Of a DNA stretch of 45,326 bases, positions 5,506-34,774 are shown in pieces (the stretch's first letter is position 1; every line of letters begins with the position of its first letter). The stretch comes from a virus, in the IMG/VR virus record IMGVR_UViG_3300017917_000647, positions 1 to 45,326 of that record; one strand, given 5' to 3'. Position numbers and translations under genes: made by a program. The notes under the pieces are model-generated. The model saw nothing but the letters and a program-made list of their open reading frames with translations, ran no database searches and was not told the origin of the DNA.

Positions 5506-5508
5506 TAT

Positions 5509-8140: not shown

Positions 8141-9589
8141 ATGTCGCTACGCATTAGAAGAGGAACAGAAGCCCAACGTACAGGTGTAATCCTTGAAACA
8201 GGGGAAATTGCTTGGACTACAGACTATCGTCAACTATGGGTTGGCGACGGCCTACAACCCGGTGGATATCCGGTTGTTGGCGCAAATGTAGCCGGGTATG
8301 GATTAAGTTATAATAACACATCGCATAAGCTAGAAGTAGCTGGATTAACTACAGATGACGTAGTTCAAGGTGTGAATAACAAATATTTTAGTGCAGAATT
8401 AGCACAAGATGCAGCGGCTGCATTGTTTAATAACGGTTCACATACAGGTATTACATTCCAGTATGATGACACTCAGGCAGCAATCAATGCTGTTGTTACT
8501 TTAGATACAAGTACATCCGATAATATTCGAGAGCTAGCACAAGATTCAGTTTGGACTATGTTGCGTGATGGATCTCATTCAAATATTTCGTTTACATATA
8601 ACGATAACGGTACTAGCACAGGAACTATCAATGCAACTGTAACATTAGACGGTGTTGGTATTGCGTCTGTTCAAGCTGATACTAGCCCACTACTTGGCGG
8701 TAACTTAGGATTAAATTCAAGAAATATTGTAGGTTCAGGTGACATTAATATTACAGGCGACGTAATTGTTACTGGTAAACTAGACAACGGTGTTATTAGT
8801 ATAGACAATGGTGTTATTACATCTACATCTGACACATTTACATTTGGTACAAATACTGCTCAAAGCACTATAACAGTTCTTACAAATAACAAATTTACAC
8901 CGTCGGCGGTGTTAACTGGTTTAACTGATGGCCCACAAGCAGGTACTTCTTTAGAATTTAAAGCATCTAGAGGAACAATTTCTGCACCAGCAGCTGTACA
9001 ACCTGCAGACGGAACAGGACTAATAACATCATTTGCTTACGATGCATCTGGATATCAATTAACAACACTTATAGGATCATTTATTGATCCTAACGGATCC
9101 GTTGGTGTAGGAACTACTACTGGTATGATTGCACTAGTTACATTTAGTGATACCACTCCAACTAATGCTAAAGGTGTTTATATTAATAGAAACGGTTGGG
9201 TAACTATTGGACGTACTTTAGTTGACGATGCAACAGCTGAGTTAGATGTAAACGGAACGGTTAAGTCATCGTTATTTAAAGCAGGGCAGCAAGATACTGG
9301 AGTTGACTTTAATAATGGTTATTCGTTCAGCGGTTCTGAAGGTGGTCACGATACAGGTATGTTTAGTTCTGGTGATGGTATCATCAAACTAATCAGCAAT
9401 ACTAATACTGTTATAACAGTTAATACAAACAAAACTATTTCATTACCAGTATTAACATCTGCACCGGCAGGTCCTACAAACGGTTCGTTTGCTGTTGCTG
9501 ACAGAGTAACATGGGATCCAGCAGGCAAAGGTTCTGGCGGAAGCTATCCAGTGTACTATGACGGTACTAGCTGGAACGCTTTATTCTAA
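8141..9589 (+). CDS. Tail-fibre-like structural protein with tropism-determinant-type N-terminus, 482 aa
   Basis: Residues 1-40 (MSLRIRRGTEAQRTGVILET, then GEIAWTTDYRQLWVGDG) match the short N-terminal module seen in phage tail fibres and in major tropism determinants. Residues about 70-165 hold two repeats of the type NNKYFSAELAQDAAAALFNNGSH / IRELAQDSVWTMLRDGSHSN, each followed by beta-strand sequence. The rest is Gly/Ser/Thr/Asn-rich beta-structure, ending PVYYDGTSWNALF, as in trimeric fibres. It probably forms part of the host-recognition apparatus. The 3' end overlaps the convergent gene by 9 bases. No chaperone is visible beside it. Confidence 0.78.
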   Translation: MSLRIRRGTEAQRTGVILETGEIAWTTDYRQLWVGDGLQPGGYPVVGANVAGYGLSYNNTSHKLEVAGLTTDDVVQGVNNKYFSAELAQDAAAALFNNGSHTGITFQYDDTQAAINAVVTLDTSTSDNIRELAQDSVWTMLRDGSHSNISFTYNDNGTSTGTINATVTLDGVGIASVQADTSPLLGGNLGLNSRNIVGSGDINITGDVIVTGKLDNGVISIDNGVITSTSDTFTFGTNTAQSTITVLTNNKFTPSAVLTGLTDGPQAGTSLEFKASRGTISAPAAVQPADGTGLITSFAYDASGYQLTTLIGSFIDPNGSVGVGTTTGMIALVTFSDTTPTNAKGVYINRNGWVTIGRTLVDDATAELDVNGTVKSSLFKAGQQDTGVDFNNGYSFSGSEGGHDTGMFSSGDGIIKLISNTNTVITVNTNKTISLPVLTSAPAGPTNGSFAVADRVTWDPAGKGSGGSYPVYYDGTSWNALF

Positions 9590-10270
9590 AATAGATAGTA
9601 CTCGATTAATAAACTCTGCGGGATAGTTAGTTCTAAAACTATTCCAGCAGAGTTTTTCCATGAGTGGCAACGGATGTTTATCGTCCCAACTAATCCCTAA
9701 ATCTACAATATATTTTTTCATTTCTTCTTGTCTAGTGCTGTAAATATGACTAGCATGATCAGCAATACTAATAGGGCCTTCGTTATTGCTGTATGTAAAA
9801 AAATAGTTGATACTTTTTAGTTTTCCGTCTACAATAAAGTAACTGCTAGGATGCATACTATATTTGTACCAGCCCCTTTCACGATGAGCTTTAATTATAG
9901 ACAACATTTGTTCTTGCCAATCGGGCAACACTTTATCAAAGTTTTTTTGATCGCATTTGGCTTGTTCCCAAAAATCAGGACCGTCTACTTTTAAATATAT
10001 CTTTTGTTCTGGAATGTTTACTTCTAGTATTTCTGGAACCATATCAGGATTATGGTGTGCCATATTATGTAAGAAATGCAATTCTCTTTGAAATTTTTCT
10101 TTCATTAATTTAGGATCTACTACTTGATTTTGCCCTTTATGATAGTCAGAATCATTATGGTACCACTGGACAAACACTTTTTTATCAGTGCTCATTAAAC
10201 TAGTGTAAATAAGATTGTTACGGCATTGACCGTGATCTGGGACATTGTTGTAGTAATAATTGTATTCCAT
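9581..10270 (-). CDS. Kinase-like-fold protein, 229 aa (paralogue of the protein at 15213)
   Basis: I use ATG 10270 rather than a TTG 15 bases further upstream. The product has a small N-terminal lobe with a conserved Gln-Arg-Glu helix (FQRELHFLHNMAHHNP) and a C-terminal segment HRERGWYKYSMHPSSYFIVDGKLKSINYFF. This resembles the catalytic-loop region of aminoglycoside-phosphotransferase/lipopolysaccharide-kinase-like folds, where HxDxxxxN and D(F/Y) are expected. The catalytic Asp of HxD is replaced (HRE or HPS) so activity is uncertain. The gene at 15213 has the same order of segments (LPxxW-x-EQ, then KxHKEKLYK, then FYVDNKETIHAFVFY). It is a one-gene unit convergent with the tail fibre. 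Function inferred only at fold level. Confidence 0.5.
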   Translation of the reverse strand: MEYNYYYNNVPDHGQCRNNLIYTSLMSTDKKVFVQWYHNDSDYHKGQNQVVDPKLMKEKFQRELHFLHNMAHHNPDMVPEILEVNIPEQKIYLKVDGPDFWEQAKCDQKNFDKVLPDWQEQMLSIIKAHRERGWYKYSMHPSSYFIVDGKLKSINYFFTYSNNEGPISIADHASHIYSTRQEEMKKYIVDLGISWDDKHPLPLMEKLCWNSFRTNYPAEFINRVLSILE

Positions 10271-10293
10271 AATATTAGTTATCAAAGGAAAAA

Positions 10294-11094
10294 ATGATTA
10301 AAGGTATAAACGGCATTCCGTATTATAACATGGAAGAGTATTTGGACATGGAAATGTTTGACAAACTCCAGCCGGAAATTATAACCGGTTTTGCAGAAGC
10401 AAGAATGTATGCAAAAGAGGGAACGTGGATGAAGCCAGGATTTACCTTTGAACAAATGAGCTATATTCCTAATTGGAAACCAATGTACAAGGCTCTAGAA
10501 GAATTTATGGCCTTAGATAATAATGATCCTATTAAGTTAGCTGGTAGTCAATTTTGTAAAGACTTTAGTGATTATAAAATGAGAAACAAGCTAACACGAT
10601 TTCTTAAAATGTCAATGGGTGCGTATGACCCTTACATTTATTATTTTCTTTGGGAAGAAGGTTCATGGGATGATCGAACAGCACCCCGTAAACTTACAGA
10701 AGAAGCTGCTTACTTTCCTAATGTCGTTAAATGGGTTGAATCGATGGTGGGAACTATTTTTGAAGACATAGGTCGTGTTATATTTTTTCATTGCGATGCA
10801 GACGGAATTCCGTTTGAACATAGAGACTTAGATGCTAAAAATGGTATCAATGTTGTTATGCCACACCGTAACGAGTTTATACATATTCGTCCTAACACAA
10901 AGAAAGCATTTTACTTGTGGGACCCAGAAAAGAAAAATAAGATTTATTTAAACACAAGAGCCGCATGGTGGAATGACACAGACTGGCACGGTGGCGAACG
11001 TATTATGGAACAAAGTTATAGCTTACGCATCGACGGGAAGTTCACAGAAGAGTTCCGCAAAAAATTAGGAATAGATCACATTGAAACCTATTGA
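10294..11094 (+). CDS. 2-oxoglutarate/Fe(II) oxygenase-like protein, 266 aa
   Basis: The C-terminal half contains the facial-triad pattern of the aspartyl/asparaginyl beta-hydroxylase group: H176-R-D178 (FEHRDLD), H232 (DTDWHGGE) and R245 (SYSLRIDG) for 2-oxoglutarate. An N-terminal helical extension of about 150 residues lacks motifs I know. The expected chemistry is hydroxylation using oxygen, Fe(II) and 2-oxoglutarate. It is the first gene of a three-oxygenase + strand unit, with AAAGGA 7 bases before ATG 10294, divergent from the kinase-like gene over 23 bp. Confidence 0.75.
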   Translation: MIKGINGIPYYNMEEYLDMEMFDKLQPEIITGFAEARMYAKEGTWMKPGFTFEQMSYIPNWKPMYKALEEFMALDNNDPIKLAGSQFCKDFSDYKMRNKLTRFLKMSMGAYDPYIYYFLWEEGSWDDRTAPRKLTEEAAYFPNVVKWVESMVGTIFEDIGRVIFFHCDADGIPFEHRDLDAKNGINVVMPHRNEFIHIRPNTKKAFYLWDPEKKNKIYLNTRAAWWNDTDWHGGERIMEQSYSLRIDGKFTEEFRKKLGIDHIETY

Positions 11095-11707
11095 AGAATT
11101 ACGACACAAGTTACAAGTATATGCAGATCTTGACGAAGCTCGAGAGTACTATAATATAATCAAAACTCAGTTTGCAGATCAACGCTGGAGTGTTTATAAA
11201 CACTCAGAACGCCTTACTAAAGAAGCGTGGTACGGGTTTGAAGATTTAGACTATGCTGTTGCTCCTGGAGGCTGGGCTTTACAAACACATTTAGAAACTG
11301 ACGATGTGTGTGCTCCGTGGATCGTTGATACTTACAATCCTGTTCAAAGAGATCATAATCCAATGATATTTGGATTCGCAGAAAAGCTATTACAAAAGAT
11401 TCCTATGGCTAAATGGTTAAGTATTAGTGAGACGCCAGGCGGTGGCGGAATTGTATCACATCAAGATAGTCACTGGCATATACATTTACCTTTGTACAGT
11501 CCAGAGCAAAGTTTCCTTACATGGGATGACGAAAATAAACAACCAGTATATTGGGAACATTTTCCAGCAGACGGAAGTATCTATGCTTGGAATACTACCG
11601 AGCAACATACGGTTTTTAACAAAAGCAATGAGCTTAGGGTACACCTATTCTTTAAAGTGGAAATAGAAGATGTTCCAGAATTATTAAAAATTACAGGTAA
11701 GATATGA
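11081..11707 (+). CDS. 2-oxoglutarate/Fe(II) oxygenase, Asp/Asn hydroxylase-like, 208 aa
   Basis: The start is TTG 11081, overlapping the upstream stop by 14 bases with TTAGGA about 9 bases before it; no in-frame ATG fits before the conserved part. The triad is H127-Q-D129 (SHQDSHWH), H176 (TEQHTVFN) and R186 (ELRVHLFF). The double-stranded beta-helix strands are clear (HIHLPLYS, SIYAWNTTEQHTVFN). This is the best match in the window to the aspartyl/asparaginyl beta-hydroxylase family. The substrate could be a protein side chain or a small molecule. It is coupled to oxygenases on both sides. Confidence 0.8.
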   Translation: MKPIEELRHKLQVYADLDEAREYYNIIKTQFADQRWSVYKHSERLTKEAWYGFEDLDYAVAPGGWALQTHLETDDVCAPWIVDTYNPVQRDHNPMIFGFAEKLLQKIPMAKWLSISETPGGGGIVSHQDSHWHIHLPLYSPEQSFLTWDDENKQPVYWEHFPADGSIYAWNTTEQHTVFNKSNELRVHLFFKVEIEDVPELLKITGKI

Positions 11708-12483
11708 GTGATGCACCACCAGTAATGTATAAAGACAACCCAGGTTTTGATTACTGCTTAGAAGTATTCACAGCATGGAAGGAGCATCAATTAGTTGATT
11801 TTGATCCAACACGGATTGATATGATGCGTAATAGTAGGCATTCTAGCAAAGTAGAAGACTTCCTTACTCAAGAAGAGTTTGCAGAGCTTACTAACTTAAT
11901 TGTAGACAATCCTACTTGGCATTTATTTTGGGAAGGCGGTAGTGCATTAGCAAATATCAATCCAGAATATCCTAACTACGACAGGATTATGGCACTGACT
12001 GTAGATAAGATTAAAGCAGTTCGCGGCGATTTTAAAATAGATAATATGTTTGTTCGCCGTGCAGTAAATAGTTTGCCTTTACATACAGACCATGTATATA
12101 ACTGGCCAGATCGTTTACCGTCGTTTACTTATGTGTTTCCATTAGCTGCAGAACGCAATGGACAATTTACTACCAATTGGAGCGGTATTAGTACTGTAAT
12201 GTTTGAGCAGTATCAGTATCGTCGCGCTTACGGTGCAGAGATATTTGATGTAGAATTAAAAACAAATAAACCTTTTCCTGCTCAAGATTACGAACATGTT
12301 AGTCAACATACACCTGAACAGCTAGAGGGTCTTAGTTTAGAAACTGTGTTTCCTTGGAAACAAGGAAGTATGATTACTATGGATGCTTATAGATTGCATT
12401 GTAGTAATGATTGGCGCAAGCACGGCTTTGATGCTAAGTGGGGACTGATTATACAGTCGGCAATCGATATCCCCAGTAATTAA
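11704..12483 (+). CDS. 2-oxoglutarate/Fe(II) oxygenase-like protein, 259 aa
   Basis: ATG 11704 overlaps the previous stop (ATGA). The triad reads H127-T-D129 (LPLHTDHVYN), H232 (AYRLHCSNDW) with K245 (DAKWGLII) as the likely 2-oxoglutarate contact. Between them lies a beta-rich insert (ERNGQFTTNWSGISTVMF). It is the third oxygenase of the unit. Its 3' end overlaps the convergent oxygenase gene by 35 bases. Confidence 0.72.
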   Translation: MSDAPPVMYKDNPGFDYCLEVFTAWKEHQLVDFDPTRIDMMRNSRHSSKVEDFLTQEEFAELTNLIVDNPTWHLFWEGGSALANINPEYPNYDRIMALTVDKIKAVRGDFKIDNMFVRRAVNSLPLHTDHVYNWPDRLPSFTYVFPLAAERNGQFTTNWSGISTVMFEQYQYRRAYGAEIFDVELKTNKPFPAQDYEHVSQHTPEQLEGLSLETVFPWKQGSMITMDAYRLHCSNDWRKHGFDAKWGLIIQSAIDIPSN

Positions 12484-13000
12484 ACATATACTTGTCTGTT
12501 AATCCGCCATTCATTCCGCAATGCCATGCATTGTAATCTGGCCACTGATATATGTCCCCTTTGTTTGGTCGATATACAGCACTTTCTCCAACAATACTAA
12601 TATGCCCGTGTTGTGGTTCTTGTATGTAACAAGTATAACGCACTAGCTCGCCTTTTTTCTTAAACTCTTCTATATTCTGATGGGCATCGTAATGCCACGG
12701 CGCCATTTTGCCAGGGCGTATTTTACTAATCCAAACCATTAATGGTTCTACATTGACAATGCTTTTAAATTGATCAACAACCTCTTCTCCAAAATCTTCT
12801 TTAAAGTAGTTGATCCATTCTACACTATGATCTTTATATAAGTAACCTGCTTGTTGCCAAAGTTTATCTAGTTGTCTAAAGTCTTCAGTGTCAGGAAAGC
12901 AACGATGATTGTACCACATGGTACTACCATTTGATGTTTTGCATCGTTCAATAACTGTATCCCAGTCAATAATTAAACTAGTATTACCTATTAATTTCAT
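12449..13000 (-). CDS. 2-oxoglutarate/Fe(II) oxygenase-like protein, 183 aa
   Basis: I chose ATG 13000, which overlaps the last codons of the upstream gene by 17 bases; a longer start at 13033 would overlap by 50. The triad is H103-Y-D105 (APWHYDAHQ), H160 (YNAWHCGMN) and a basic residue near 170 (LTDKYMFNYWGYR). The core strands VRYTCYIQEPQHGH and KGDIYQWPDYNAWH fit a double-stranded beta-helix. It is the last gene of a four-gene - strand unit that starts with another oxygenase. Confidence 0.72.
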   Translation of the reverse strand: MKLIGNTSLIIDWDTVIERCKTSNGSTMWYNHRCFPDTEDFRQLDKLWQQAGYLYKDHSVEWINYFKEDFGEEVVDQFKSIVNVEPLMVWISKIRPGKMAPWHYDAHQNIEEFKKKGELVRYTCYIQEPQHGHISIVGESAVYRPNKGDIYQWPDYNAWHCGMNGGLTDKYMFNYWGYRLPTV

Positions 13001-13487
13001 AATCAAACCTTTTTGTGTTACGCATAATACCATTAAAGACTAGTACAGGTAATTTTTTTTCAAGCGCAATACTTAAAATATTCCAGCCGTGGGCTTTATG
13101 TTCGTAATCTCGTTTTTTTGATCCTGGTTGAATCCACCAAGGAGTATAGTCATCGTGAAAGTTTTCATCACTCCGCAAAGGTGATACCTGTGTATGTGGA
13201 CTGTGAAATCGTTGTTGTCCTATACTAGGGCATCCTAATTCTTTATATGTAGGTAAGTGTATTACATAGCATTGACAATGTAATTCGTAATAACCACTTA
13301 TTGGTTCTCTATCTAAGATATGCCCAATAATAAAAAAATTTTTATCTTTTAACTCTTTTAAAAATAATTCTTTGTCTATAAATGAATGTCCTACACGAGT
13401 TACTATAGCATAGTCATACTCGTTTGCTATTGATTGAAGATATGTATCCTCATTTAAATCGTCTACAATTATTTCAGTTATCTTCAT
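12984..13487 (-). CDS. Hypothetical island protein, 167 aa
   Basis: I do not recognise the family. It has an alternating beta/alpha layout: NEYDYAIVTRVGHSFIDKELFLKEL, then NFFIIGHILDRE, then YYELHCQCYVIHLPTYKELG, then a loop with HDDYTPWWIQPGS and a final LPVLVFNG strand. The FIIGHILDRE and CQCYVIHL strands with DDYTPWWI give it the look of a catalytic domain related to glycosyl- or nucleotidyl-transfer folds, but this is a guess. It overlaps its neighbours on both sides (14 bases upstream, 17 downstream), so it is made with the larger unknown protein at 13474. Confidence 0.6.
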   Translation of the reverse strand: MKITEIIVDDLNEDTYLQSIANEYDYAIVTRVGHSFIDKELFLKELKDKNFFIIGHILDREPISGYYELHCQCYVIHLPTYKELGCPSIGQQRFHSPHTQVSPLRSDENFHDDYTPWWIQPGSKKRDYEHKAHGWNILSIALEKKLPVLVFNGIMRNTKRFDYEINR

Positions 13488-14550
13488 ACCAAGTAGGCAA
13501 TCTTAATTCTTCTTGAGTAAATGTGCTTATATGCCCTGCTAGTTGCGGACTATCACAATATACATCGCCAGCACGGGTTATAAACCCTACATGACAATCG
13601 TAGTCTTTTAAACTATTCAGCATACGGCTTTCAGCATTAATTCTAGTTTGTAAACTATAAAATGCACTAGTTAGATAATAACTAAAGATGTTGCTAAAAT
13701 TAATAAAGGTGTTAGGCTTCTTTTCAACAAGATAAGAAATATCTATATTCTCAAGCAAATTAATATGTACAAAATCAAACTTAACTGTATTAACAATATG
13801 TAACCAATTCTCTGGTTCGTCTTCATTGTACATACTAGCAAAACCGTAGTCCCAATCTCTGTTTATAAATTTAAATTTACTGCGGCCTAATTTCATAATG
13901 AAGTCTTTATAAGACCCGCCGTTGTATCGTAATACAATCTCTTTCATACATTCTAAAGCTAGGTAACTATAATCATAAAATCTAACAGTAGTATTTTCAT
14001 CGTAACCATATTTGTTAAGATAGTTAACCCAATTTAGGCCAGCCGCTGGGGTTACTAGTTGTTGTATTTTAGATATATTTAAATTATGTGTTGGTTCGTT
14101 GTTTACTGGATAAAAAAATGCACCGTGCCCTAGACTGAATTTTTTATTTTGCCATTCAAGACTTTTTTCAAAAGCGTCTTCACTAAATCCATCTACGTAA
14201 AAAATATTCTTAGCAAGATCTATTTTGTCTGCTGTGTGTAATGTAATATCTTTGACTTGGTCTTTTAAATTAATGATCTTAAACTCATCATCTAATTCTA
14301 TGTTAACAACACTAGAATCTAATATATCAATACCTGTTGGTACAATAATTGCTGCTTTAAAGAACGCTTTAGCAAACATTATCATTTCATTTAAGTCTTT
14401 ACTTACAACTACAAAAAAACGTTCGCGTAGTTTAAACAGCGTTTGATCGCTTACATTTTTAAGCAACTGTTGAGAAATAGGAATGCATTGATCTATTTGA
14501 TCAAGGATACATACAACTACATCTCTATCCTCTATGCCGTATCTTATCAA
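13474..14550 (-). CDS. Hypothetical island protein, 358 aa
   Basis: No family recognised. Residues 1-110 (MIRYGIEDRDVVVCILDQID, FFVVVSKDLNEMIMFAKAFFKA) look like a small alpha/beta domain. The second half has TVRFYDYSYLALECMKEIVLRYNGGSYKDFI and, later, NTFINFSNIFSYYLTSAFYS, a layout reminiscent of Rossmann-like methyltransferase-type folds, although the glycine-rich SAM motif is not evident. The C-terminus CHVGFITRAGDVYCDSPQLAG may be a closing beta-hairpin. Its stop overlaps the following gene's start by 14 bases and its start overlaps the upstream oxygenase by 4 bases. Confidence 0.6.
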   Translation of the reverse strand: MIRYGIEDRDVVVCILDQIDQCIPISQQLLKNVSDQTLFKLRERFFVVVSKDLNEMIMFAKAFFKAAIIVPTGIDILDSSVVNIELDDEFKIINLKDQVKDITLHTADKIDLAKNIFYVDGFSEDAFEKSLEWQNKKFSLGHGAFFYPVNNEPTHNLNISKIQQLVTPAAGLNWVNYLNKYGYDENTTVRFYDYSYLALECMKEIVLRYNGGSYKDFIMKLGRSKFKFINRDWDYGFASMYNEDEPENWLHIVNTVKFDFVHINLLENIDISYLVEKKPNTFINFSNIFSYYLTSAFYSLQTRINAESRMLNSLKDYDCHVGFITRAGDVYCDSPQLAGHISTFTQEELRLPTWYEDN

Positions 14551-15185
14551 CTTCTGCTCCTACTAAGCAAGTTACAAAATTCTTCTTTACGATTGCCAAC
14601 TTTAAAATGTGCAATCATGTGTATTCTATCTTGATTACTATTATTAATAACTTCGTGATCCTTGCTTACATTTAGCAAAATGCTCATTCCTGTTTTCCAA
14701 GGAACTGTTTTGCCATCAACAGTCATTATACATTCTTTAGGATGCACGATGGCAAGGTTTAGAGCAAAGTCGTGCTCAAAAGGATCAAATCCTTTTAAAT
14801 CTTCTGGTTCGCAATCTCTATGTAAATTAATTCGACCACCTGCAGATAGTTTCATAAATCGTATTCGCTTATACGATTCTGCAGGAAATGATTTCCAAAA
14901 TTTTGTAATTGTTGGTGCAAGTTCTGTAAGCTCAGTCCAATCATAACCGTCATCGGTATCTTGATAAAATTCGTATCCGTTTGTTTTATCAACACCAAGG
15001 CCATGCAGGCAACAACTAGTCCACCCATCATGTTCTTCAGCACCTCTATGTTCTACATAGTAAGGTTCAATTCTTTGAGCTTCTTCAGCCCAAGCGCTAG
15101 TGTCAAAGGGTACTTTGATTTCTAACCAATTGATTCGTTCTGGTTTCGCAAACAACCAACGCACTAGTGCTTCATTATTATTCAT
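14547..15185 (-). CDS. 2-oxoglutarate/Fe(II) oxygenase, Asp/Asn hydroxylase-like, 212 aa
   Basis: The triad H122-R-D124 (INLHRDCEPED), H177 (SKDHEVINNS) and R187 (QDRIHMIAHF) is complete, with a conserved FALNLAIVHP strand between. Length and motif order fit the aspartyl/asparaginyl hydroxylase-like group. It leads a four-gene - strand unit. A perfect TATAAATA lies at 15190-15197 on the same strand, only 4 bases before the ATG, and there is no room for a ribosome-binding site, so a leaderless late mRNA is predicted. Confidence 0.78.
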   Translation of the reverse strand: MNNNEALVRWLFAKPERINWLEIKVPFDTSAWAEEAQRIEPYYVEHRGAEEHDGWTSCCLHGLGVDKTNGYEFYQDTDDGYDWTELTELAPTITKFWKSFPAESYKRIRFMKLSAGGRINLHRDCEPEDLKGFDPFEHDFALNLAIVHPKECIMTVDGKTVPWKTGMSILLNVSKDHEVINNSNQDRIHMIAHFKVGNRKEEFCNLLSRSRS

Positions 15186-15189
15186 GAGA

Positions 15190-15197
15190 TATTTATA
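15190..15197 (-). promoter_or_regulatory. Exact T4-type late promoter, 4 nt before ATG 15185
   Basis: The - strand reads TATAAATA, identical to the T4 late consensus, then TCTC, then ATG. T4 late transcription normally starts about 5-7 nt after this octamer, which places the mRNA 5' end at or inside the start codon. A second late-like box for the divergent gene begins 3 bp away. Confidence 0.8.
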
Positions 15198-15200
15198 GCG

Positions 15201-15208
15201 AGTAAATA
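15201..15208 (+). promoter_or_regulatory. Late-promoter-like box, 4 nt before ATG 15213
   Basis: AGTAAATA (TAAATA core exact) followed by CTTG and ATG. It has the same core-to-ATG spacing as the divergent box at 15190. The identical octamer recurs before ATG 34740. Confidence 0.62.
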
Positions 15209-15212
15209 CTTG

Positions 15213-19597: not shown

Positions 19598-19602
19598 GCG
19601 AG

Positions 19603-19610
19603 TATTTAAC
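19603..19610 (-). promoter_or_regulatory. Late-promoter-like box before ATG 19597
   Basis: The - strand reads GTTAAATA, then CTCGC, then ATG. The TAAATA core is exact and spaced 5 nt from the start codon, in line with the other island units. Confidence 0.6.
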
Positions 19611-19636
19611 TAAGTAATTACCAAGAGATAATATTT

Positions 19637-21874: not shown

Positions 21875-21898
21875 TATTTTTGGGCTTCTTTTTAAACA

Positions 21899-21906
21899 AT
21901 TAAATA
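21899..21906 (+). promoter_or_regulatory. Late-promoter-like box for the SDR-to-radical-SAM unit
   Basis: ATTAAATA with an exact TAAATA core, 19 bases before ATG 21926. GAGG at 21914-21917 gives a normal ribosome-binding site, so this unit has a short conventional leader. Confidence 0.55.
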
Positions 21907-21925
21907 CTCCACTGAGGACTTTATC

Positions 21926-27028: not shown

Positions 27029-27746
27029 GTGCCCACTCCCTTTCTTTACACCAGAAACATTCACCGCACATTGGAACTTCTTGTCCGTTAGTGTAAGTTT
27101 TGTAAGTTATATTTTCAAACGTTCCTTCACAACTACGTGTGATATTAAACAGATCCATAATTTCTAATCTTTTGTATTGTTTCAATACCCAAGACTTATC
27201 AACAAATCTAAACGGGTGACTAGCAACACGACCCATATGTATCATATACTCTAAGTGTTTGTTCTCTTCTGTGGGTTCTATATCTCTTTCTAACATTCCG
27301 TTTAACTGTGCTAGTCTAGGATTGCGTGTTACTGCGTTATAATACGCATCAATGTTATACTTGTTACAAATAAACTCAGCATAAGCTCTTTGTTGTATAT
27401 TATCACCACTAACTTTCTTACCGTACTCATCTGTTAAGTTTGGTCCAATATTTCCATATTCTAATTCAGGTGCTATAAAGTTAGTATGTCGTTTAAAAGT
27501 TGTGTGGTAAAATTTTTGAAATAACCACCTAAACACATGATCAGCATCGTACTGTTGCCAGGGTTTTGTTTTCCAACATCGTACATGATTGATGATATGT
27601 ACAGTAGTGTCATGTTCCTTTGACAGTTCACATAACAAGTAAGCTAGTAAGGCAGAATCAGCACCTCCACTTACACTTATAGCAATGTTCTTCCAATCTC
27701 TGTTATATGGAATTTGTACGCCATCAATATTATGAAAGACTTGCAT
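27015..27746 (-). CDS. QueC-like PP-loop ATP pyrophosphatase, 243 aa
   Basis: The PP-loop SVSGGADSALLAYLL (SGGADS at 26-31) marks an adenylating enzyme. The C-terminus carries four cysteines, C206, C227, C230 and C233 (RSCEG and CGECFWCKERE), a zinc site as in QueC. QueC makes 7-cyano-7-deazaguanine, and phages use that pathway to modify DNA or tRNA, but other pathway genes (QueD, QueE, FolE) are not seen here. An alternative is adenylation of a carboxylate for amide formation in the island pathway. It overlaps its neighbours on both sides by 14-17 bases. Confidence 0.72.
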   Translation of the reverse strand: MQVFHNIDGVQIPYNRDWKNIAISVSGGADSALLAYLLCELSKEHDTTVHIINHVRCWKTKPWQQYDADHVFRWLFQKFYHTTFKRHTNFIAPELEYGNIGPNLTDEYGKKVSGDNIQQRAYAEFICNKYNIDAYYNAVTRNPRLAQLNGMLERDIEPTEENKHLEYMIHMGRVASHPFRFVDKSWVLKQYKRLEIMDLFNITRSCEGTFENITYKTYTNGQEVPMCGECFWCKEREWALGQS

Positions 27747-28584
27747 TTTCTAAATACCTTATTAAAGGACTAATACCTACGGGCTGGTTATTCCTTAGTG
27801 CTAGATATATACTTTTTGTTGGTGTTAAATTAAAATCATCACACACTTTATAATATCTATCACCGTGTTTTTTCCAAAGATAGTCGCTGTTAAATGTTCT
27901 AACAAAATGCAACCCAATCATAACTAATGCACGATTGTTCATTTGGAAGTCATTCATTATTGTAACACTATCGGCCTTATTTTGTCTAGTCCATCGCAAG
28001 CCTATTCTATTCCACCCTAAACCAAGACCTTTGCTAAGGCTGATGCCAACGGATCTAATAACTTCATTACTAAAGTCAAAATTAATATCCCTACAACAAC
28101 TGACCCAAGCACCATCAATATGAACTTCAATATTTTTAATTTTGCATTCATGCAAAATTTCCTCCATGTCTTGATGTGGAGCACCAATGCTAGGAAAAGG
28201 CATTGCTACAATTAAAGGAATATCAGGTATTAACGACCCCACATCTTTGATGTACGCTAGACCCAATCTATTATGATATCGGTAATCGCCTCTAAGAACT
28301 TGTACAGGACCTTGCATATAAAGGTTATCTATAAATTGTGTACAGCCATTAATAATATCAACACGGCCGGTTAGTCCTTGCAAGTTGTTTAATGTTGAAT
28401 TAACAATCCAATCTTCTGCTTCTTTTTTAAAATTAGTATAAACACTATCAGTAATATCCTTATCTAGATTGCCGGATAAGACATCCTGTATAGTTTGCTC
28501 AATTTGGTTGTCGCTTAACGGACTTGGACGTTCTACTTCCAAATGCTGGTCAGAGTACTCTAAAGCGACTTTAAACTTTTTCAT
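27730..28584 (-). CDS. PLP aminotransferase-like protein (fold type I), short, 284 aa
   Basis: ATG 28584 is 4 nt after a TAAATA core; an upstream frame start at 28611 would lie outside that box. VHIDGAW contains the Asp (157) that pairs with the PLP ring nitrogen, and SLSKGLGLGWNRIG contains the Schiff-base Lys (185) and the Arg (193) of the class I/II pattern. INGCTQFIDNL (79-89) matches the N-terminal PLP-phosphate loop. Normal family members are 350-420 residues, so both small-domain ends are reduced. It may be a transaminase or lyase acting on an amino sugar or amino acid. It heads a four-gene unit with a QueC-like and two radical SAM proteins. Confidence 0.7.
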   Translation of the reverse strand: MKKFKVALEYSDQHLEVERPSPLSDNQIEQTIQDVLSGNLDKDITDSVYTNFKKEAEDWIVNSTLNNLQGLTGRVDIINGCTQFIDNLYMQGPVQVLRGDYRYHNRLGLAYIKDVGSLIPDIPLIVAMPFPSIGAPHQDMEEILHECKIKNIEVHIDGAWVSCCRDINFDFSNEVIRSVGISLSKGLGLGWNRIGLRWTRQNKADSVTIMNDFQMNNRALVMIGLHFVRTFNSDYLWKKHGDRYYKVCDDFNLTPTKSIYLALRNNQPVGISPLIRYLENASLS

Positions 28585-28588
28585 GAAA

Positions 28589-28596
28589 TATTTACC
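28589..28596 (-). promoter_or_regulatory. Late-promoter-like box before ATG 28584
   Basis: The - strand reads GGTAAATA, then TTTC, then ATG 28584. TAAATA core exact; 4-nt spacing to the start codon; no ribosome-binding site fits. Confidence 0.65.
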
Positions 28597-28610
28597 TAGT
28601 AATAGTAGCA

Positions 28611-28618
28611 TATAAATA
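28611..28618 (+). promoter_or_regulatory. Exact T4-type late promoter before ATG 28623
   Basis: TATAAATA, then TTTC, then ATG 28623. This is a full match to the T4 late consensus, with the same 4-nt spacing as the exact box at 15190 on the other strand. Confidence 0.8.
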
Positions 28619-28622
28619 TTTC

Positions 28623-30050
28623 ATGGAACAAACACAAAAAGTATTTTGGTTACAATCAGAAGATACACAGCTAGGTAAATGGCAAAAACAAATCAAAGAA
28701 GTAACAGGTAGTAATAGTTTTTGTGTCTTGCCTTGGATACATTTGGCTACAAGGCCAAATGGGGACATGCGTATCTGTTGCGTTGCTAATGCATCTGGTG
28801 CAGACAGCGGCGACTATACTGTAGGACTAGTTAAAATGGAGGATGGTAAGCCTGCTAATTTTGGGCATAACTTACCAACAGAGGCGTTTAACAATGATTA
28901 TATGAAGTCTGTTCGCAAGACAATGCTTGCTGGAGAAGTTCCTGCTAGTTGTTTAAAATGCTATGAAGAAGAACAACAGGGCATTGCTAGTAAACGTATA
29001 TGGGAAACTGGTACTTGGTACTTAGAAGAAAAGATAGATATCCAAGAACTTATACGAGAAACAGAAGAAGACGGTACCGTTCCTTACAAACTACAATACT
29101 TAGACTTACGATTAGGACATACTTGCAATTTAAAATGTATAATGTGTAGTCCCCACGATAGCAGTATGTGGGTACCTGAACATAAAAAAATCTATCCATT
29201 AATACAAAGTCCGTTAATCCGTAAACAAATGGATTGGACTGCTGGCGACTTTAATAACTACTGGCATGAAAATCCTGCCTTCTGGGATCAGATATATGAT
29301 CAGATTCCCAACATTAAACAACTTTACTTTGCCGGCGGCGAGCCATTGTTAATTAAAGAACACAAGATGTTCCTACAAGAAATTATTAAGCGTGGCTATG
29401 CTGACAAGATTAGTTTACGTTACAACACTAACGGAATACTAATCAACGATGAAATTATCGAAATATGGGAACAGTTTAAAAAAGTTAAAGTTGGCATTAG
29501 CCTTGACGGTCTCCATGAGCGTGTTGGGTATATACGATACCCTACTGAGTTTGATATTGTAGAAAAGAACATTTGGCGATTAGAACAAACTAGCGATAAG
29601 ATTAAAACAAATATAGCGTTAGCTGTGCAAATTTTAAATATCAAACATATCCCAGATTTTATCAAATGGAAAGTTAAAAGCGGGTTTAAAAAACTAAACT
29701 TTGATACAAATGCTGCTGGACAAGTTGCTGGCGGCGGCCTGTGCGGAGTGCATCTACTTTGGATACCTACCTGGTTAAGTTTACGTGTACTACCCAAAGA
29801 AGACAAAGAAGAAGTAAGACGTTTGTTTGCCGAATTACAGGACTGGTTGTGGGACCACTATACACAAGATAAAGAGTTTTGGGAAACTAACCCGTATGGT
29901 TGGAAGCGATGGGAAGGAATACTAGATTGGATGGATGCTGAGGATCACACTAACTTACTTCCAGACTTTAGAGAATATATCAACACTATGGACAGACAGC
30001 GCGGCACAAATTTTAAAAAAGTATTTCCTGAATTGTCACATTTACTATAA
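28623..30050 (+). CDS. Twitch/SPASM-like radical SAM protein, 475 aa
   Basis: The N-terminal Cys module (FCVLPWIHLATRPNGDMRICC, then CLKCYEEE at 110-113) matches the proteins at 15778 and 25760. The radical SAM motif is C168-NLK-C172-IM-C175, and LYFAGGEPL is the GGE motif. The last 120 residues are an extra C-terminal region rich in Trp, Glu and Lys, not seen in the shorter relatives. It leads a + strand unit that continues with an oxygenase and a desaturase. Substrate unknown. Confidence 0.85.
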   Translation: MEQTQKVFWLQSEDTQLGKWQKQIKEVTGSNSFCVLPWIHLATRPNGDMRICCVANASGADSGDYTVGLVKMEDGKPANFGHNLPTEAFNNDYMKSVRKTMLAGEVPASCLKCYEEEQQGIASKRIWETGTWYLEEKIDIQELIRETEEDGTVPYKLQYLDLRLGHTCNLKCIMCSPHDSSMWVPEHKKIYPLIQSPLIRKQMDWTAGDFNNYWHENPAFWDQIYDQIPNIKQLYFAGGEPLLIKEHKMFLQEIIKRGYADKISLRYNTNGILINDEIIEIWEQFKKVKVGISLDGLHERVGYIRYPTEFDIVEKNIWRLEQTSDKIKTNIALAVQILNIKHIPDFIKWKVKSGFKKLNFDTNAAGQVAGGGLCGVHLLWIPTWLSLRVLPKEDKEEVRRLFAELQDWLWDHYTQDKEFWETNPYGWKRWEGILDWMDAEDHTNLLPDFREYINTMDRQRGTNFKKVFPELSHLL

Positions 30051-30724
30051 TGATTACACCTCTAAACTACGTAACAAACTTTTCTGATATAGTTGACCAA
30101 GTTGTTGGGTTAGGCTACTTTGGAAAACGTTTAGAACTTAATGTGCCAACAGGAGAATTTTTTAATGATCCCTGGAGTCTTAAAAATGAATTTATAGACA
30201 CACCATTAGGCAACGTTTTAAACAATTTAGGAAACATTGGCCAAGCAAGATTGTTATGTTTAGATTCTGGAGAAACTTATACAGCCCATTGCGACCCTGA
30301 CGATAGAATACACCTGGCAATATTGACCAACCCATACAGTTATCTAGTTAACATCGAAGATCAACAGTTGCACCATATACCTGCTAACGGTCAGCTATGG
30401 CACATGGATACTAGTAAAATACATATTGCAGTAAACTGGGGTTCTAGAACTAGAATACATCTAAATGTAAGAGTTTTACTTCCAAAATACAATTCAGCTA
30501 ATCCTAGTTTAAAAATTAAAATACTCGACGGCGACTACGATTGGAAGCAAGTAGCATACATGCCAATTATGCAACTGGTAAATAGACACGTCAAGGACGG
30601 TTTGGTAACAGGATTCAAGGGTATTAGCGATAAGGAAATTATTATTAATACATTAAAACCAGACTTGTTTAATAGTGCGTTTGAAGAAATTAAAAAAGCA
30701 GGAGTTATTTTAGATGTTGCTTGA
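30050..30724 (+). CDS. 2-oxoglutarate/Fe(II) oxygenase-like protein, 224 aa
   Basis: H80-C-D82 (TAHCDPDD), H125 (SKIHIAVN) and R135 (RTRIHLNV) make the triad and the 2-oxoglutarate contact, with IHLAILTNPYSYLVNI as core strands. A C-terminal tail of about 80 residues follows the fold. It starts with a TAATG overlap and overlaps the desaturase by 11 bases. Association with a desaturase suggests a lipid or lipid-linked substrate, as inference only. Confidence 0.74.
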   Translation: MITPLNYVTNFSDIVDQVVGLGYFGKRLELNVPTGEFFNDPWSLKNEFIDTPLGNVLNNLGNIGQARLLCLDSGETYTAHCDPDDRIHLAILTNPYSYLVNIEDQQLHHIPANGQLWHMDTSKIHIAVNWGSRTRIHLNVRVLLPKYNSANPSLKIKILDGDYDWKQVAYMPIMQLVNRHVKDGLVTGFKGISDKEIIINTLKPDLFNSAFEEIKKAGVILDVA

Positions 30725-31529
30725 GATCTCGTTGATGATGTTTATACATTTCCATATCATGGCAACTGTATATGTAGTGTGGATGCATAGAGGTTTCCAG
30801 CATCACTTATTTGAATTTCATCCTGTTATTAATAATATATGTCGATTACTGATGTGGACCATAGGTTGGGGTTCTCATCCGTCGTGGATGAAGGTTGCCG
30901 CAGGAACACACCGGCATCATCATTCTCATCCAGACTGTGATCAAGATCCTCATAGCCCGCACATTATTCCTTTTTTGGGCCTTTATTATTCTGACTCATA
31001 TAATCCATTTTATAAGCATACTTCAAACGAAGACTTAATGAAACTAGCACCAGATATTCCTTTATTTGATGATTGGATGCAACATAACTTTTATAAACGA
31101 TTCACAGGGATTCCGTTTAAGTTATTTGGTGAAATGTTTGAGTTCCCTGTCGGTGCGTTAGTATTTGGATTATTTTATGCGTTCTTCTTTGGGTGGATTG
31201 GATTTATTGTAGGCTTTTGCTGGATGTTTGTTCTTAGGGTTGCTGTACTAGGAGTTGCAGTATCAATGTCACATCTGTGGGGATACAAACATCCTGAAAG
31301 AAACAATGTAGATCCAAACGACAAATCTGTTAATATGATCCCTTTAGGAATCTTATTAGCAGGAGGAGAGCTACATTCTAATCACCATGTTAACACAATG
31401 GCCATTAACGATAGAATCAGATGGTTTGAATTTGATCTAGGTTACTACTATATTAAGATACTTGAATTTTTTGGACTTGTTAAGATTAGGTATGATATAG
31501 TTGTCCAGCACAGTTCTTTACGCAAGTAA
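30714..31529 (+). CDS. Membrane fatty-acid desaturase-like protein, 271 aa
   Basis: The histidine boxes are HRGFQH (25-30), HRHHH (66-70) and HSNHH (in LAGGELHSNHHVNT, about 221-225). Hydrophobic stretches at about 4-22, 40-56, 140-165 and 168-190 give about four membrane spans. It differs from the desaturase at 23138 in that its first box lies near residue 25, so the N-terminal span is short, and its loop HPDCDQDPHSPHIIPF carries extra histidines. Two desaturases in one phage island may act at different positions or on different chain lengths. The 3' end overlaps the convergent radical SAM gene by 44 bases. Confidence 0.82.
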   Translation: MLLEISLMMFIHFHIMATVYVVWMHRGFQHHLFEFHPVINNICRLLMWTIGWGSHPSWMKVAAGTHRHHHSHPDCDQDPHSPHIIPFLGLYYSDSYNPFYKHTSNEDLMKLAPDIPLFDDWMQHNFYKRFTGIPFKLFGEMFEFPVGALVFGLFYAFFFGWIGFIVGFCWMFVLRVAVLGVAVSMSHLWGYKHPERNNVDPNDKSVNMIPLGILLAGGELHSNHHVNTMAINDRIRWFEFDLGYYYIKILEFFGLVKIRYDIVVQHSSLRK

Positions 31530-32532
31530 GACACTTGTTGTCACCTACCCAGTAATCTTTAAGACGTACCCAAGTATCTGAAGTTAAAAGAGATAGTATA
31601 TCTCCGTTGTGCAAGTTTGGTACTCCTATATCGTTCATCATTTCTTTAGTATTGTTAACTGTTAGATTTCTCAATGTGTGAAGAATAATTTTTTCTTCTA
31701 ACGGTTCCTCTAAGTAATCAGAACCAATATAACAACAAGGAAATATATTTCCGTGCGGATCAACATAAATTTCTTGTTTGTTTACACACATCGGTGTAAT
31801 GATTGCTTCAGATACAACTTTTTCTGTAAATGATTTGTCTAAGAATTTTTCTAAGGGAATCTTTACTTCTTGTTTGAATTTTAAATCTGTAGCAGGATAA
31901 AGAGCATATTCAAACTCATCTTGTTTATTAAACACACTAAAGGCTTCCATATTGTAAAATCTCTTTGTACTTTTAAAGTTTACACTATGTACTCCGATAC
32001 TTAATAAAAACTTTTCTAATTCTTCAACTTCGTCTTGATTGTGTTTAAAAACTAAACTATCAACTTTAGCAACCCCGCCGGCTGATACGTATGCTTTTAT
32101 ATTTTCTATAATTTTATCAAAGTCAGTATTGCGTCTATAAAGTTCGTGTTTGCCTTTGAAACCATCTACTGCAAAAATTACTTCGCCGTTAATGCCCATT
32201 ACTTTTGCAAGATCTTTCCACCAGTCAGTCTTACGTAGACTGCCATTAGTGTGTATAGCTAATCTAGCGTCTGGACTGGCACTACGAACATATTCGTAAA
32301 TTTCAAAACAGTCTTTAGCAAATACAGGATCTCCATAATTGCCACAGCTATAAAAATTATTTACGTTCCTTAAAAATTCAACAGGAAACCATTTTTTAAA
32401 ATCATCAAAGGTTATTTCTTTATTTTTAATAAAGGGCCTTTCACTGCCGCCGCTATGATTGCGGGCACACATAGGACAAGCGGCTTGGCACTTGTCTGTT
32501 AGCTCTATGTGTATAGCTGTTATTGGGTACAT
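31486..32532 (-). CDS. SPASM-type radical SAM protein, 348 aa
   Basis: C15-QAA-C19-PM-C22 is the cluster motif; VIFAVDGFKG follows as in the family. The C-terminus has CVNKQEIYVDPHGNIFPCCYIG and CLTCVKNCAG, a SPASM-like auxiliary cluster set. It is closest to the protein at 18527 (CNAACPQC, and KFAIDGLED). It is the last gene of a four-gene - strand unit: radical SAM, methyltransferase, SGNH hydrolase, radical SAM. Confidence 0.86.
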   Translation of the reverse strand: MYPITAIHIELTDKCQAACPMCARNHSGGSERPFIKNKEITFDDFKKWFPVEFLRNVNNFYSCGNYGDPVFAKDCFEIYEYVRSASPDARLAIHTNGSLRKTDWWKDLAKVMGINGEVIFAVDGFKGKHELYRRNTDFDKIIENIKAYVSAGGVAKVDSLVFKHNQDEVEELEKFLLSIGVHSVNFKSTKRFYNMEAFSVFNKQDEFEYALYPATDLKFKQEVKIPLEKFLDKSFTEKVVSEAIITPMCVNKQEIYVDPHGNIFPCCYIGSDYLEEPLEEKIILHTLRNLTVNNTKEMMNDIGVPNLHNGDILSLLTSDTWVRLKDYWVGDNKCLTCVKNCAGQLYHT

Positions 32533-33185
32533 AACTTTCTTCTATTAATTTGCGTAACTAAAAAGTCTGAAATTATTTTATGTCCTTCAGGCCCTGGATG
32601 ATCCTTGATCCAGTCGATATCATTAAAAGAATTTAAATATGATCTAAGACTAAAGTCGTGCATAAAATATTTTAGGTCGACGCCCTTACTAAGGTTCTCC
32701 ATTAAGTGTTTTGGTAACACTTCAAATTCTATTCTAAACGTTGGAACAAACAAGTATGGTATTTGTTTTTCTTTTAGGAACGCCTGCATCAATAGTAATT
32801 GAGTTCCAAAAACTTCCATATTACCTATGTCACTGTTGTATCTACTAGTAATTAAATCTGCTATTTCTGCGTCATCATCGTGGCCAGTTCCAGAAAAGAT
32901 TGCCCACTCATTATTATCTAGCCTACACAATTCGTAACGATGTGGAAAAGTCCAAGAAATTAAAACTAAAGGTTTCCTACCGTTATTGATTAGCTCTTGT
33001 ATATCTTGCACACTTGTTCTAACTATTCTGTGATTACTGGAGCCGCCTTTAGCTTTAAGGATTAATTCCAAACCAATATCATGTGCAACTAAACTAGGCC
33101 AACATTGGCTTAGTCTACGACTCTCGTCTAAGCCAGCACCGTATGCCCAGCTATCACCGTTAACATATAAACAATCTACTTTCAT
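32520..33185 (-). CDS. SGNH/GDSL-like hydrolase, 221 aa
   Basis: Block I is VNGDSWAYGAGL (Ser12 in GDS), block II/III is AKGGSSNHRIV, including the Gly and Asn of the oxyanion hole, and block V is DHPGPEGHKIIS with the Asp-x-x-His-like pair. There is no signal peptide. SGNH enzymes remove or transfer acyl groups on sugars and lipids. It overlaps both neighbours, so it is translated with the methyltransferase upstream and the radical SAM protein downstream. It is not close to the SGNH protein at 19637. Confidence 0.78.
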   Translation of the reverse strand: MKVDCLYVNGDSWAYGAGLDESRRLSQCWPSLVAHDIGLELILKAKGGSSNHRIVRTSVQDIQELINNGRKPLVLISWTFPHRYELCRLDNNEWAIFSGTGHDDDAEIADLITSRYNSDIGNMEVFGTQLLLMQAFLKEKQIPYLFVPTFRIEFEVLPKHLMENLSKGVDLKYFMHDFSLRSYLNSFNDIDWIKDHPGPEGHKIISDFLVTQINRRKLCTQ

Positions 33186-33775
33186 CTTTTACCAATAATC
33201 ATAAATCTTTTATACAACGGTAAATCCAACTCACCTGCGTATAAAATTTTGTTTAGATTAGATTGTTGCTTAAATTCATCTAAGTTTTTAGCAATGCGAA
33301 CATGTTCTGGAATGTTATAATTGTTACTTTGTAAAACTAATAGGCTGTTATGTGGATGCCCACTTAACCACAAGTCATATTGATCTTGTGTAATATGTTC
33401 ACAGCTGGTGTTGATAATAACATCAGCGTCGCTACGAACTTCACACATATCTGCCGTAACAGCACGAAACTTCCCAACCATCTCTTCTATCTTATTCATA
33501 TTAGTAGCAATTGATTCACACATTGGATCAATATCAATACTTTTAATTTTTGATACTGGAATGTTACTTTGAAATAGCATACTGGCCAATACACCTACCC
33601 ATCCACCGTGAATGTCTATGCTAACAAATTTATTAACATGATTACGTAAATTTTTAATCAACCACTCTTTACTGTTAAGTTGTCCAGACCAAAATGCATC
33701 CATGGTTCGCATAGGATCCGGACTTTGACGAATGGCTTGCATCCAGTGATGTAAGTGTTCTGTATCTATTTGCAT
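33182..33775 (-). CDS. Class I SAM-dependent methyltransferase-like protein, 197 aa
   Basis: VSIDIHGGWVGVLASML (51-67) is motif I of the Rossmann methyltransferase fold with a Gly-rich turn, and IKSIDIDPMCESIATNM (77-93) is motif II with the acidic residue that binds the SAM ribose. ADVIINTSCEHI is motif IV. Length is minimal, with no obvious substrate-binding extra domain, so the acceptor is unknown. It sits between two radical SAM genes and an SGNH hydrolase. Confidence 0.75.
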   Translation of the reverse strand: MQIDTEHLHHWMQAIRQSPDPMRTMDAFWSGQLNSKEWLIKNLRNHVNKFVSIDIHGGWVGVLASMLFQSNIPVSKIKSIDIDPMCESIATNMNKIEEMVGKFRAVTADMCEVRSDADVIINTSCEHITQDQYDLWLSGHPHNSLLVLQSNNYNIPEHVRIAKNLDEFKQQSNLNKILYAGELDLPLYKRFMIIGKR

Positions 33776-34740
33776 TTTGGTATTTTGCTATCTGCTGAAC
33801 TAACACATGTAGGTGTAATACAGCGTTGCGGTTCCTTAAATAATTCAAAGCCATCTAATGTACCAAGTGGAACATCATGACAACTATAACTTCTTTTAAC
33901 TTCGTTTCCTCTTATTATAACACTTTGAAACCCTGCATTGCAAGTCCAATCTTTAAACTTGTTAAAATTAAATGCATTAAATCTTTCTGCTTGATCAAAT
34001 AGATACTCGTTGCTATCTTGATCGTACAATGCTATTTGATAAACATCTTCACCATCAGCATGTTGCGGAAACCCAGTTTGCATTTTATTGATCATGTCTT
34101 CAGTGTAGCCGTCAACAATACCACTAGCAGTCGGGTCGCTCATTGGTTTAAGCGTTACATTTATACCTCTAGATGCAAGTCGTTGCATACGATCATATAG
34201 TTCATAAAACTTTTCTGGAACCATAACTTGATTAACTGTTACATAAACATTCTCGTACATTAACTGTAGACACTTATCACCAAACTCTTGTTCTCGAGCA
34301 AATTCTGCATGATAACTTGCTGTGATACTTCTGCGTTGCAAGGTTGATGTAATACTACACCAATTCTTCCACCAATTACTGCCAGGACTTAAATTAGTGG
34401 TCATATGTACACTTTGATAAGGACTACTTGTATCTTTCTCAAGGTGTTTAAACAACTCAGGAAGTTGTTTATATGCTGTTGGTTCGCCACCACTAAATGA
34501 CCAATGAAACTCTGTGAATCCGTTTAATCTTGCTTGTCGTTTAATTTCATCGATTGTATTTTTATATACTTCTAACGACTGATGGTCTATTTTATCGCTT
34601 CTAGCGTACGGCCAGCAGTAGCTACATTTATAATTACAGAATCTACCCAAAATCCAACTAACGGAAAATAATGGTTTGGACAACATTGTCCGTTGCCCAA
34701 ACTTTACAATATTTTGGAAAGGAATGGTAGTAAATTGCAT
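33766..34740 (-). CDS. Radical SAM protein, 324 aa
   Basis: C35-NYK-C39-SY-C42 is the cluster motif; FHWSFSGGEPTAY is the GGE motif. The C-terminal part WTCNAGFQSVIIRG and the following Cys-rich segment SCHDVPLG and CITPTC match the tails of the proteins at 23889 and 24871. A TAAATA core lies 6 nt before ATG 34740, and the opposite strand carries the promoter for the tRNA-like gene, so this junction marks the right end of the island. Confidence 0.85.
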   Translation of the reverse strand: MQFTTIPFQNIVKFGQRTMLSKPLFSVSWILGRFCNYKCSYCWPYARSDKIDHQSLEVYKNTIDEIKRQARLNGFTEFHWSFSGGEPTAYKQLPELFKHLEKDTSSPYQSVHMTTNLSPGSNWWKNWCSITSTLQRRSITASYHAEFAREQEFGDKCLQLMYENVYVTVNQVMVPEKFYELYDRMQRLASRGINVTLKPMSDPTASGIVDGYTEDMINKMQTGFPQHADGEDVYQIALYDQDSNEYLFDQAERFNAFNFNKFKDWTCNAGFQSVIIRGNEVKRSYSCHDVPLGTLDGFELFKEPQRCITPTCVSSADSKIPKCK

Positions 34741-34768: not shown

Positions 34769-34774
34769 TATGAT

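Follow-up and report, generated by a model that had tools for sequence, protein, structure and literature searches.

A 45,326-base virus fragment from IMG/VR, called the window here in its whole length, carries at positions 9581-34740 an island of 29 open reading frames (ORFs) that overlap or abut, ten of which encode radical S-adenosylmethionine (rSAM) proteins. Part of this island recurs as a conserved core across dozens of diverged loci, and 22 of its genes are collinear between the window and locus L089. Since the core recurs under purifying selection within an exchangeable shell, the island very probably encodes one dedicated pathway with diversifying tailoring steps and not scattered cargo, as an earlier note, made from the letters of the window alone, had maintained. 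As a tentative interpretation, we propose a late modular pathway for decorating the tail of the virion or the envelope of the host. Two findings go beyond that note: that a conserved core is set apart from variable accessories, and that the right border holds a member of a family of anticodon-less tRNA-like RNAs.

Genes flanking the island match rIIA, rIIB, a head-maturation protease, a phage ATPase and a DNA ligase. The nearest relative of the whole region is L089 (record G005, 191 kb), whose T4-type terminase is most closely related, among deposited phages, to those of the jumbo phages PA5oct, Phosso and Atu_ph07. Capsid genes of the T4 gp23 type were found in four further records, 270-353 kb long, that bear the island. 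Because of this terminase and these capsid genes the window is, to judge from sequence relationships, a fragment of a T4-like jumbo-phage relative.

A recurring core of rSAM proteins and partner enzymes

All ten rSAM proteins counted in the earlier note hold up, each combining the CX3CX2C motif with a match to the Pfam family Radical_SAM (PF04055) at E<1e-4, far beyond chance. Two of them, w15778 and w25760, stay just under the curated PF04055 cut-off in HMMER; both have the motif, both contain PF13186 (SPASM/twitch) and both exceed, together with w28623, the 170-bit cut-off of NF033640 (N_Twi_rSAM), which makes the three members of this N-terminal twitch-domain (N-twitch) family. The NF033640 model is named by domain only and gives no function, and the island holds sets of at least two such proteins alongside other rSAMs. 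These others comprise two proteins of about 350 aa (w18527 and w31486), three of about 320 aa with extra C-terminal cysteines (w23889, w24871 and w33766) and two that resemble B12-dependent rSAMs (w16963 and w20384). Neither of the last two reaches a cut-off of the B12-rSAM equivalogs TIGR04072, HpnJ or PhpK; against TIGR04072 they score 61 and 50 bits, respectively, and the cut-off is 360.

Scans of IMG/VR gave 105 relatives of w28623, in viral stretches, and at least 591 relatives of the w33182 family. Core frequencies were counted in a non-redundant set of 45 viral loci that extend 12 kb or more past w33766 (family F4; 33766-34740, reverse strand, PF04055 45.6 bits), a core rSAM that is 65-81% identical across loci. 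The other core rSAMs are the N-twitch proteins w28623 (28623-30050, forward strand, NF033640 403 bits, 44/45 loci) and w25760 (25760-27064, reverse, 333 bits, 40/45) and the protein w24871 of about 315 aa (24871-25818, reverse, PF04055 51 bits, 44/45). They are joined by a methyltransferase-fold protein, w33182 (33182-33775, reverse, 40/45); w28623 and w33182 were the bait proteins, which is reflected in their counts. Two further rSAMs are frequent: w31486 (31486-32532, reverse, PF04055 41 bits), from an often multicopy family, in 38 of the 45 loci, and w23889 (23889-24899, forward, about 335 aa, 39.6 bits) in 30. The recurring set also includes an oxygenase like the Asp/Asn hydroxylase AspH, w30050 (30050-30724, forward, PF05118 27.8 bits, 34/45), a pyridoxal phosphate (PLP) enzyme, w27730 (27730-28611, reverse, 30/45), and a QueC-like PP-loop ATPase, w27015 (27015-27746, reverse, 22/45).

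Median identity for the core is 60-75% in almost every locus, whereas the desaturases, the second SGNH protein and the B12-type rSAMs each occur in at most 10 of the 45. The expectation that the genes stay together as a block in relatives is borne out for the core, and the accessories proved exchangeable. Between the window and L089 synonymous sites are near saturation, and omega or pN/pS is mostly 0.03-0.3, indicating strong purifying selection. In seventeen large records (61-353 kb) 7-19 rSAMs were found per record, mostly inside one 25-30 kb stretch. Clusters of this size in single phage genomes appear to be undescribed: a survey of 224 jumbo phages does not name rSAMs anywhere in its main text, and searches of the open-licence literature that paired radical SAM with jumbo or huge phages, with tRNA-like RNA or with biosynthetic clusters turned up no account of such an island, though one may exist elsewhere. 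Among 50,697 deposited phages there was no match for w16963, w33182, w33766 or w27015, and w28623 had only distant ones. As the core is frequent among uncultured viral contigs and missing from deposited phages, it would represent chemistry that is extensive, so far unseen and clearly defined in genetic terms; its testable core genes are now separated from the accessories.

Three core partners had been classified beforehand as methyltransferase, PLP aminotransferase-like and QueC-like proteins. In the first case the assignment stands at the level of fold: the AlphaFold model of w33182 (pLDDT 92) is a class-I SAM-methyltransferase fold (Z about 17, rmsd 2.6-3.1 over 172-176 residues). Nicotianamine synthases came first in Foldseek, so that on this model a SAM chemistry other than methyl transfer is possible; a nicotianamine-synthase identity is unsupported, since these enzymes lie outside the best 50 rows of a second aligner, which does not exclude it. 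The second assignment is likewise sustained by a fold-type-I PLP fold (Z about 18), with Asp166 and Lys194 invariant. As to w27015, the SGGxDS motif and a C-terminal CxxCxxC are present and mostly kept in relatives, but PP-loop and QueC families match only under their cut-offs (QueC 15.9 bits vs 22). A 7-deazaguanine pathway was judged by a QueC match above cut-off together with QueD, QueE and FolE partners; w27015 stays below that cut-off and none of these partners was identified in the island, for which reasons we rejected a modification of DNA by deazaguanines.

Late expression and the target of the pathway

The window contains two copies of TATAAATA, a T4-late-type promoter box, each just upstream of a start codon at a divergent junction: one at 28611-28618 on the forward strand, the other at 15190-15197, just upstream of w14547. 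Across loci, in 40 of 78 occurrences a called gene start follows within 60 nt, against an average of 6% for 25 permuted octamers. This enrichment at gene starts supports late transcription, already anticipated in the earlier note, without proving it, and late expression of the island is probable.

Under the proposed interpretation, the core enzymes (two N-twitch rSAMs, two to four further rSAMs, the methyltransferase-fold protein, the PLP enzyme, the QueC-like ATP-dependent enzyme and the AspH-like oxygenase) would activate and reshape an amino-acid- or sugar-derived scaffold. The B12-type rSAMs, additional oxygenases, desaturases and SGNH enzymes would then diversify it by methylation, hydroxylation, desaturation and acyl transfer or removal, and the product would decorate the virion tail or the host envelope, serving host recognition or superinfection exclusion. 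Chemistry, order of steps and target are all inferred. That the target is the virion or host surface is suggested by the adjacent tail fibre, the late-type promoters, the hypervariable gene content and the abundance of glycosyltransferases near relatives in Vibrio phage K566 and in a Halobacteriovoraceae genome; for the remodelling of virion or envelope foreseen in the earlier note this support is indirect, and we consider such a target about an even prospect.

Known phage islands offer partial parallels. Tail-fibre adjacency in a T4-like phage and hypervariable gene content, the hallmarks of a host recognition cluster, are both found here. In the T4-like pelagimyophages the host recognition cluster is likewise large and hypervariable and includes tail fibres; it contains glycosyltransferases and, like the window island, rSAM cassettes; unlike in the window, glycosyltransferases are its most conspicuous non-fibre genes, and the portion of that account drawn on here describes neither a conserved multi-rSAM core nor a tRNA-like RNA (PMC7029224). 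In cyanophages P-SSM2 and S-SSM6a, lipopolysaccharide (LPS) and 'secondary metabolite' clusters have been proposed to decorate the capsule or make a metabolite; these jumbo-phage clusters share 2-oxoglutarate (2OG) oxygenases and methylases with the window island, but are based on a halogenase and a carbamoyltransferase, and the main text of the paper is without radical SAM (PMC7824862). The island extends such surface and secondary-metabolite islands and is unusual among them in its rSAM density and conserved core.

Several observations weigh against a surface-decorating pathway. Pfam reveals no glycosyltransferase or sugar-nucleotide enzyme in the window island, and no transporter was recognised in the window. 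Sequence identity between the window and L089 is just 39% for the tail fibre but 70-90% for most proteins of the island; since the fibre has diverged and the island proteins stay conserved, island content does not track the fibre. Besides, between a third and a half of the 12-kb stretches lack the PLP and QueC-like genes, some of which could be located further out. A classical O-antigen/LPS cluster was rejected for the window, which has no glycosyltransferase.

SPASM/twitch rSAMs and PF05118 enzymes often modify proteins, and both are present in the island. The rSAMs and AspH-like oxygenases could accordingly act on a structural protein such as the tail fibre, or on a distantly encoded peptide in the manner of ribosomally synthesized and post-translationally modified peptides (RiPPs). 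The adjoining fibre and the rSAM sets near giant virion genes in Atu_ph07 and Phosso would suit such a system, as would the lack of a small-molecule polymerase in the island; moreover, the nearest folds of w33182 include N-terminal protein methyltransferases, though many other methyltransferases tie with them. However, whereas a SPASM/twitch rSAM is present as in RiPP clusters, a precursor-peptide gene is not: with a largest intergenic gap of 39 nt a separate one does not fit in the island, in agreement with the earlier note. Pfam scans of the island found no precursor-recognition domain, no conserved small ORF family marks the core, and the enzymes are conserved while the fibre diverges, so that protein modification is possible yet rather unlikely.

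The variety of enzymes is also reminiscent of natural-product clusters, and a late, diffusible secondary metabolite that would shape competition, be it an antibiotic, a metallophore or a signal, has a precedent in the similar proposal for the cyanophage cluster with 2OG oxygenases (PMC7824862). Core relatives in Halobacteriovoraceae and other Bdellovibrio-like genomes would fit such a product. Nevertheless the island has no assembly-line enzyme, exporter or resistance gene, and late-type promoter boxes favour assembly or lysis functions; we regard a diffusible metabolite as unlikely though, like protein modification, a serious alternative.

An anticodon-less tRNA-like RNA at the right border

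Both proposed borders of the island are real, one of them in modified form. The left one is, as expected, a tail fibre (8141-9589, forward strand) with an Mtd_N domain (PF18454, E 3.5e-7). On the right, the tRNA-like gene (34774-34893, forward, with CCA) encodes a genuine RNA that is not a tRNA, since it has no anticodon arm. It is preceded by a sigma-70 promoter, TTGACT-17-TATAAT (34740-34768, forward, 11/12 matches), and a promoter of this type is found in 43 of 45 RNA copies, nearly always ending 5 nt upstream. ARAGORN at default settings and Rfam both missed the RNA, which matches no Rfam family; the first hint came from the intron mode of ARAGORN.

A cloverleaf-like structure fits 28 non-redundant copies, in which 96.8% of cells pair and 15 pairs show double changes; covarying cells number 101, versus 29 in shuffles, and slid controls are at most 54% paired. 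Covariation maintains the acceptor stem with CCA and the T-arm. The canonical anticodon arm (5 bp, 7 nt) is missing from all 28 copies and is replaced by UUCG, CUUG or larger hairpins; in several copies an AGUA/GAA internal loop resembling the sarcin-ricin loop was noticed by eye at its place. The RNA shares acceptor stem, CCA, T-arm, a tRNA-Leu-like D-loop, A73 and a long variable arm with tRNA-Leu and the tRNA-like domain of tmRNA and differs from both in lacking the anticodon arm; as a tmRNA it has no ARAGORN or Rfam match and is only 98-121 nt long. Full-length copies at island loci score at least 65 bits with the covariance model, against at most about 42 for ordinary phage tRNAs, and bacterial and metagenome-assembled-genome loci searched for the RNA gave only scores at the level of ordinary tRNAs. 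This appears to be a new RNA family. Its copies (A8) include L010, L018, L191 and L228, and two divergent candidates of 52-53 bits lie far from the rSAM island in two giant-phage records (L388, G001 151360-151469; L389, G002 5416-5518).

The RNA is divergent from w33766, usually 33 or 71-75 nt upstream of it, in two different phage backbones. A scan for the RNA pattern that is independent of proteins placed w33766 divergent within 400 nt in 65 of 78 copies with room. Among 72 core loci with room, the RNA takes that position in 46, family F19 in 19, neither in 7 and both in none. The conserved family F19, with a DGD motif, is thus found on the 5' side of w33766 at none but the loci that lack the RNA there (members L051 757-1530, L143 8868-9812 and L150 5111-5905); by eye it looked like a GT-A enzyme, for which no convincing PDB or Pfam match was obtained. 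At L270, L295, L301, L310, L315 and L336 the RNA site carries other cargo, by eye TRAP/TctC-like binding proteins, PP-loop proteins, GNATs, a desaturase and a 2OG oxygenase, or the tail fibre directly adjoins the RNA; these loci are alternative or near-empty versions of the site.

Leucyl- and seryl-type synthetases do not need the anticodon, and the PLP, PP-loop and rSAM neighbours of the RNA recall tRNA-dependent chemistry. The RNA, charged with an amino acid, could then be a carrier on which the island enzymes remodel that amino acid, as its intact acceptor and CCA without anticodon and its fixed divergent position beside w33766 would allow. In the fullest form of this idea a host leucyl- or seryl-type synthetase would charge the RNA, and rSAM, PLP and PP-loop enzymes would build on it a block for the virion or envelope, a ribosome-free, RNA-carried chemistry in place of a peptide precursor; we hold this version to be highly improbable. 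The carrier role as such, at the outset a strong idea, was weakened as the RNA was found without the core (w33766 is not nearby in about 11 of 78 loci) and core islands without the RNA at that position (26 of 72); the RNA looks like a backbone element, and we now think a carrier role very doubtful. Because the RNA also occurs without the island, a functional link between them is unproven: it flanks a variable site and might have a part in the pathway or none, and its function is open to simple charging assays. Finally, variable accessory genes and a G+C content mostly of 33-37% in the island, against about 38-41% in its flanks, might suggest unrelated, individually mobile cargo gathered in a hypervariable site, but the recurrent core, with its identity in nearly all loci, purifying selection and collinearity, leads us to reject this as scarcely credible.

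Other genes and relatives of the island

Around the conserved core of the proposed pathway, the remaining genes begin at the fibre end with w9581 (9581-10285, reverse strand), whose family (A4) aligns with protein kinases (profile versus TTK kinase, E 2e-6). Its catalytic Asp, metal Asn and DFG Asp are replaced by S, S and N, so that the family is a pseudokinase; of the two kinase-like proteins announced, this one is therefore a kinase in profile and not in catalytic residues, and w15210 (15210-15785, forward, relatives in 23 loci) is kinase-like by eye only, with no Pfam or PHROG match. The six oxygenase-like proteins with H-x-D...H...R are confirmed, three of them by motif only. Besides w30050, the PF05118 gathering cut-off (22.6 bits) is passed by the Asp/Asn hydroxylase-like w11081 (11081-11707, forward, 31.8 bits) and w14547 (14547-15185, reverse, 62 bits). 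The motif-only proteins are the accessory w10294 (10294-11094, forward, no Pfam family), whose HRD, distal H and R are invariant in 20 relatives, w11704 (11704-12483, forward, HTD...H) and w12449 (12449-13033, reverse, HYD...H, relatives in 52 loci).

The remaining rSAMs are the accessory w15778 (15778-17028, forward, NF033640 282 bits), the likewise accessory B12-type w16963 (16963-18540, reverse, PF04055 E 1e-17) and w20384 (20384-21982, reverse, 47 bits), and w18527 (18527-19597, reverse, 37.6 bits). Other predictions of the earlier note fared unevenly. One of its two desaturases, the rare w23114 (23114-23920, forward), is firm (PF00487, E 2e-17), and the other, the equally rare w30714 (30714-31529, forward), remains just under the cut-off (29.0 vs 29.7 bits) with three His boxes. 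Likewise, the rare SGNH-like protein w32520 (32520-33185, reverse) exceeds the DUF6071 cut-off with 43.8 bits, and w19637 (19637-20407, forward) has a sub-threshold DUF6473 match only; the short-chain dehydrogenase/reductase-like w21926 (21926-22528, forward) is recognised by motif only, with no Pfam match. Three ORFs have no assigned function. One, an accessory (22521-23141, forward), is 93% identical in L089 with dN/dS 0.062; the other two form an overlapping pair at 12984-14550, of family F28 (12984-13487, reverse) and its partner (13474-14550, reverse, 77% identity in L089, dN/dS 0.065), which in relatives is mostly a single protein of 410-463 aa.

Relatives of the island enzymes occur outside the lineage. 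Cultured Vibrio phage K566 has six rSAM matches, related to the N-twitch rSAMs at roughly 20-27% identity; four are clustered and, unlike in the window island, interleaved with GT8/GT4-type glycosyltransferases. This cluster (159112-176239, L265), a practical handle for experiments, has in its vicinity a gene whose annotation is lipid A acyltransferase PagP. The cultured phages Phosso and Atu_ph07 have four rSAMs each, clustered a few genes from a 13-kb virion gene. Genes like w33766 (51%), w28623 (47%) and w33182 (34-35%) occur together in a Halobacteriovoraceae genome (L143), beside a GT2 glycosyltransferase, and in another bacterium (L150); gp23 is absent from both genomes and present in that of L165, which is for this reason probably phage DNA. 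At L107, L096 and other Alphaproteobacteria loci, w33182 relatives are near what by eye are glycosyltransferases and a peptide-ABC-transporter permease. A related giant phage (G028 215000-234900, L390) has another variable island with two rSAM proteins and, by eye, acyl-CoA synthetase-, short-chain dehydrogenase/reductase-, sulfotransferase- and methyltransferase-like genes.

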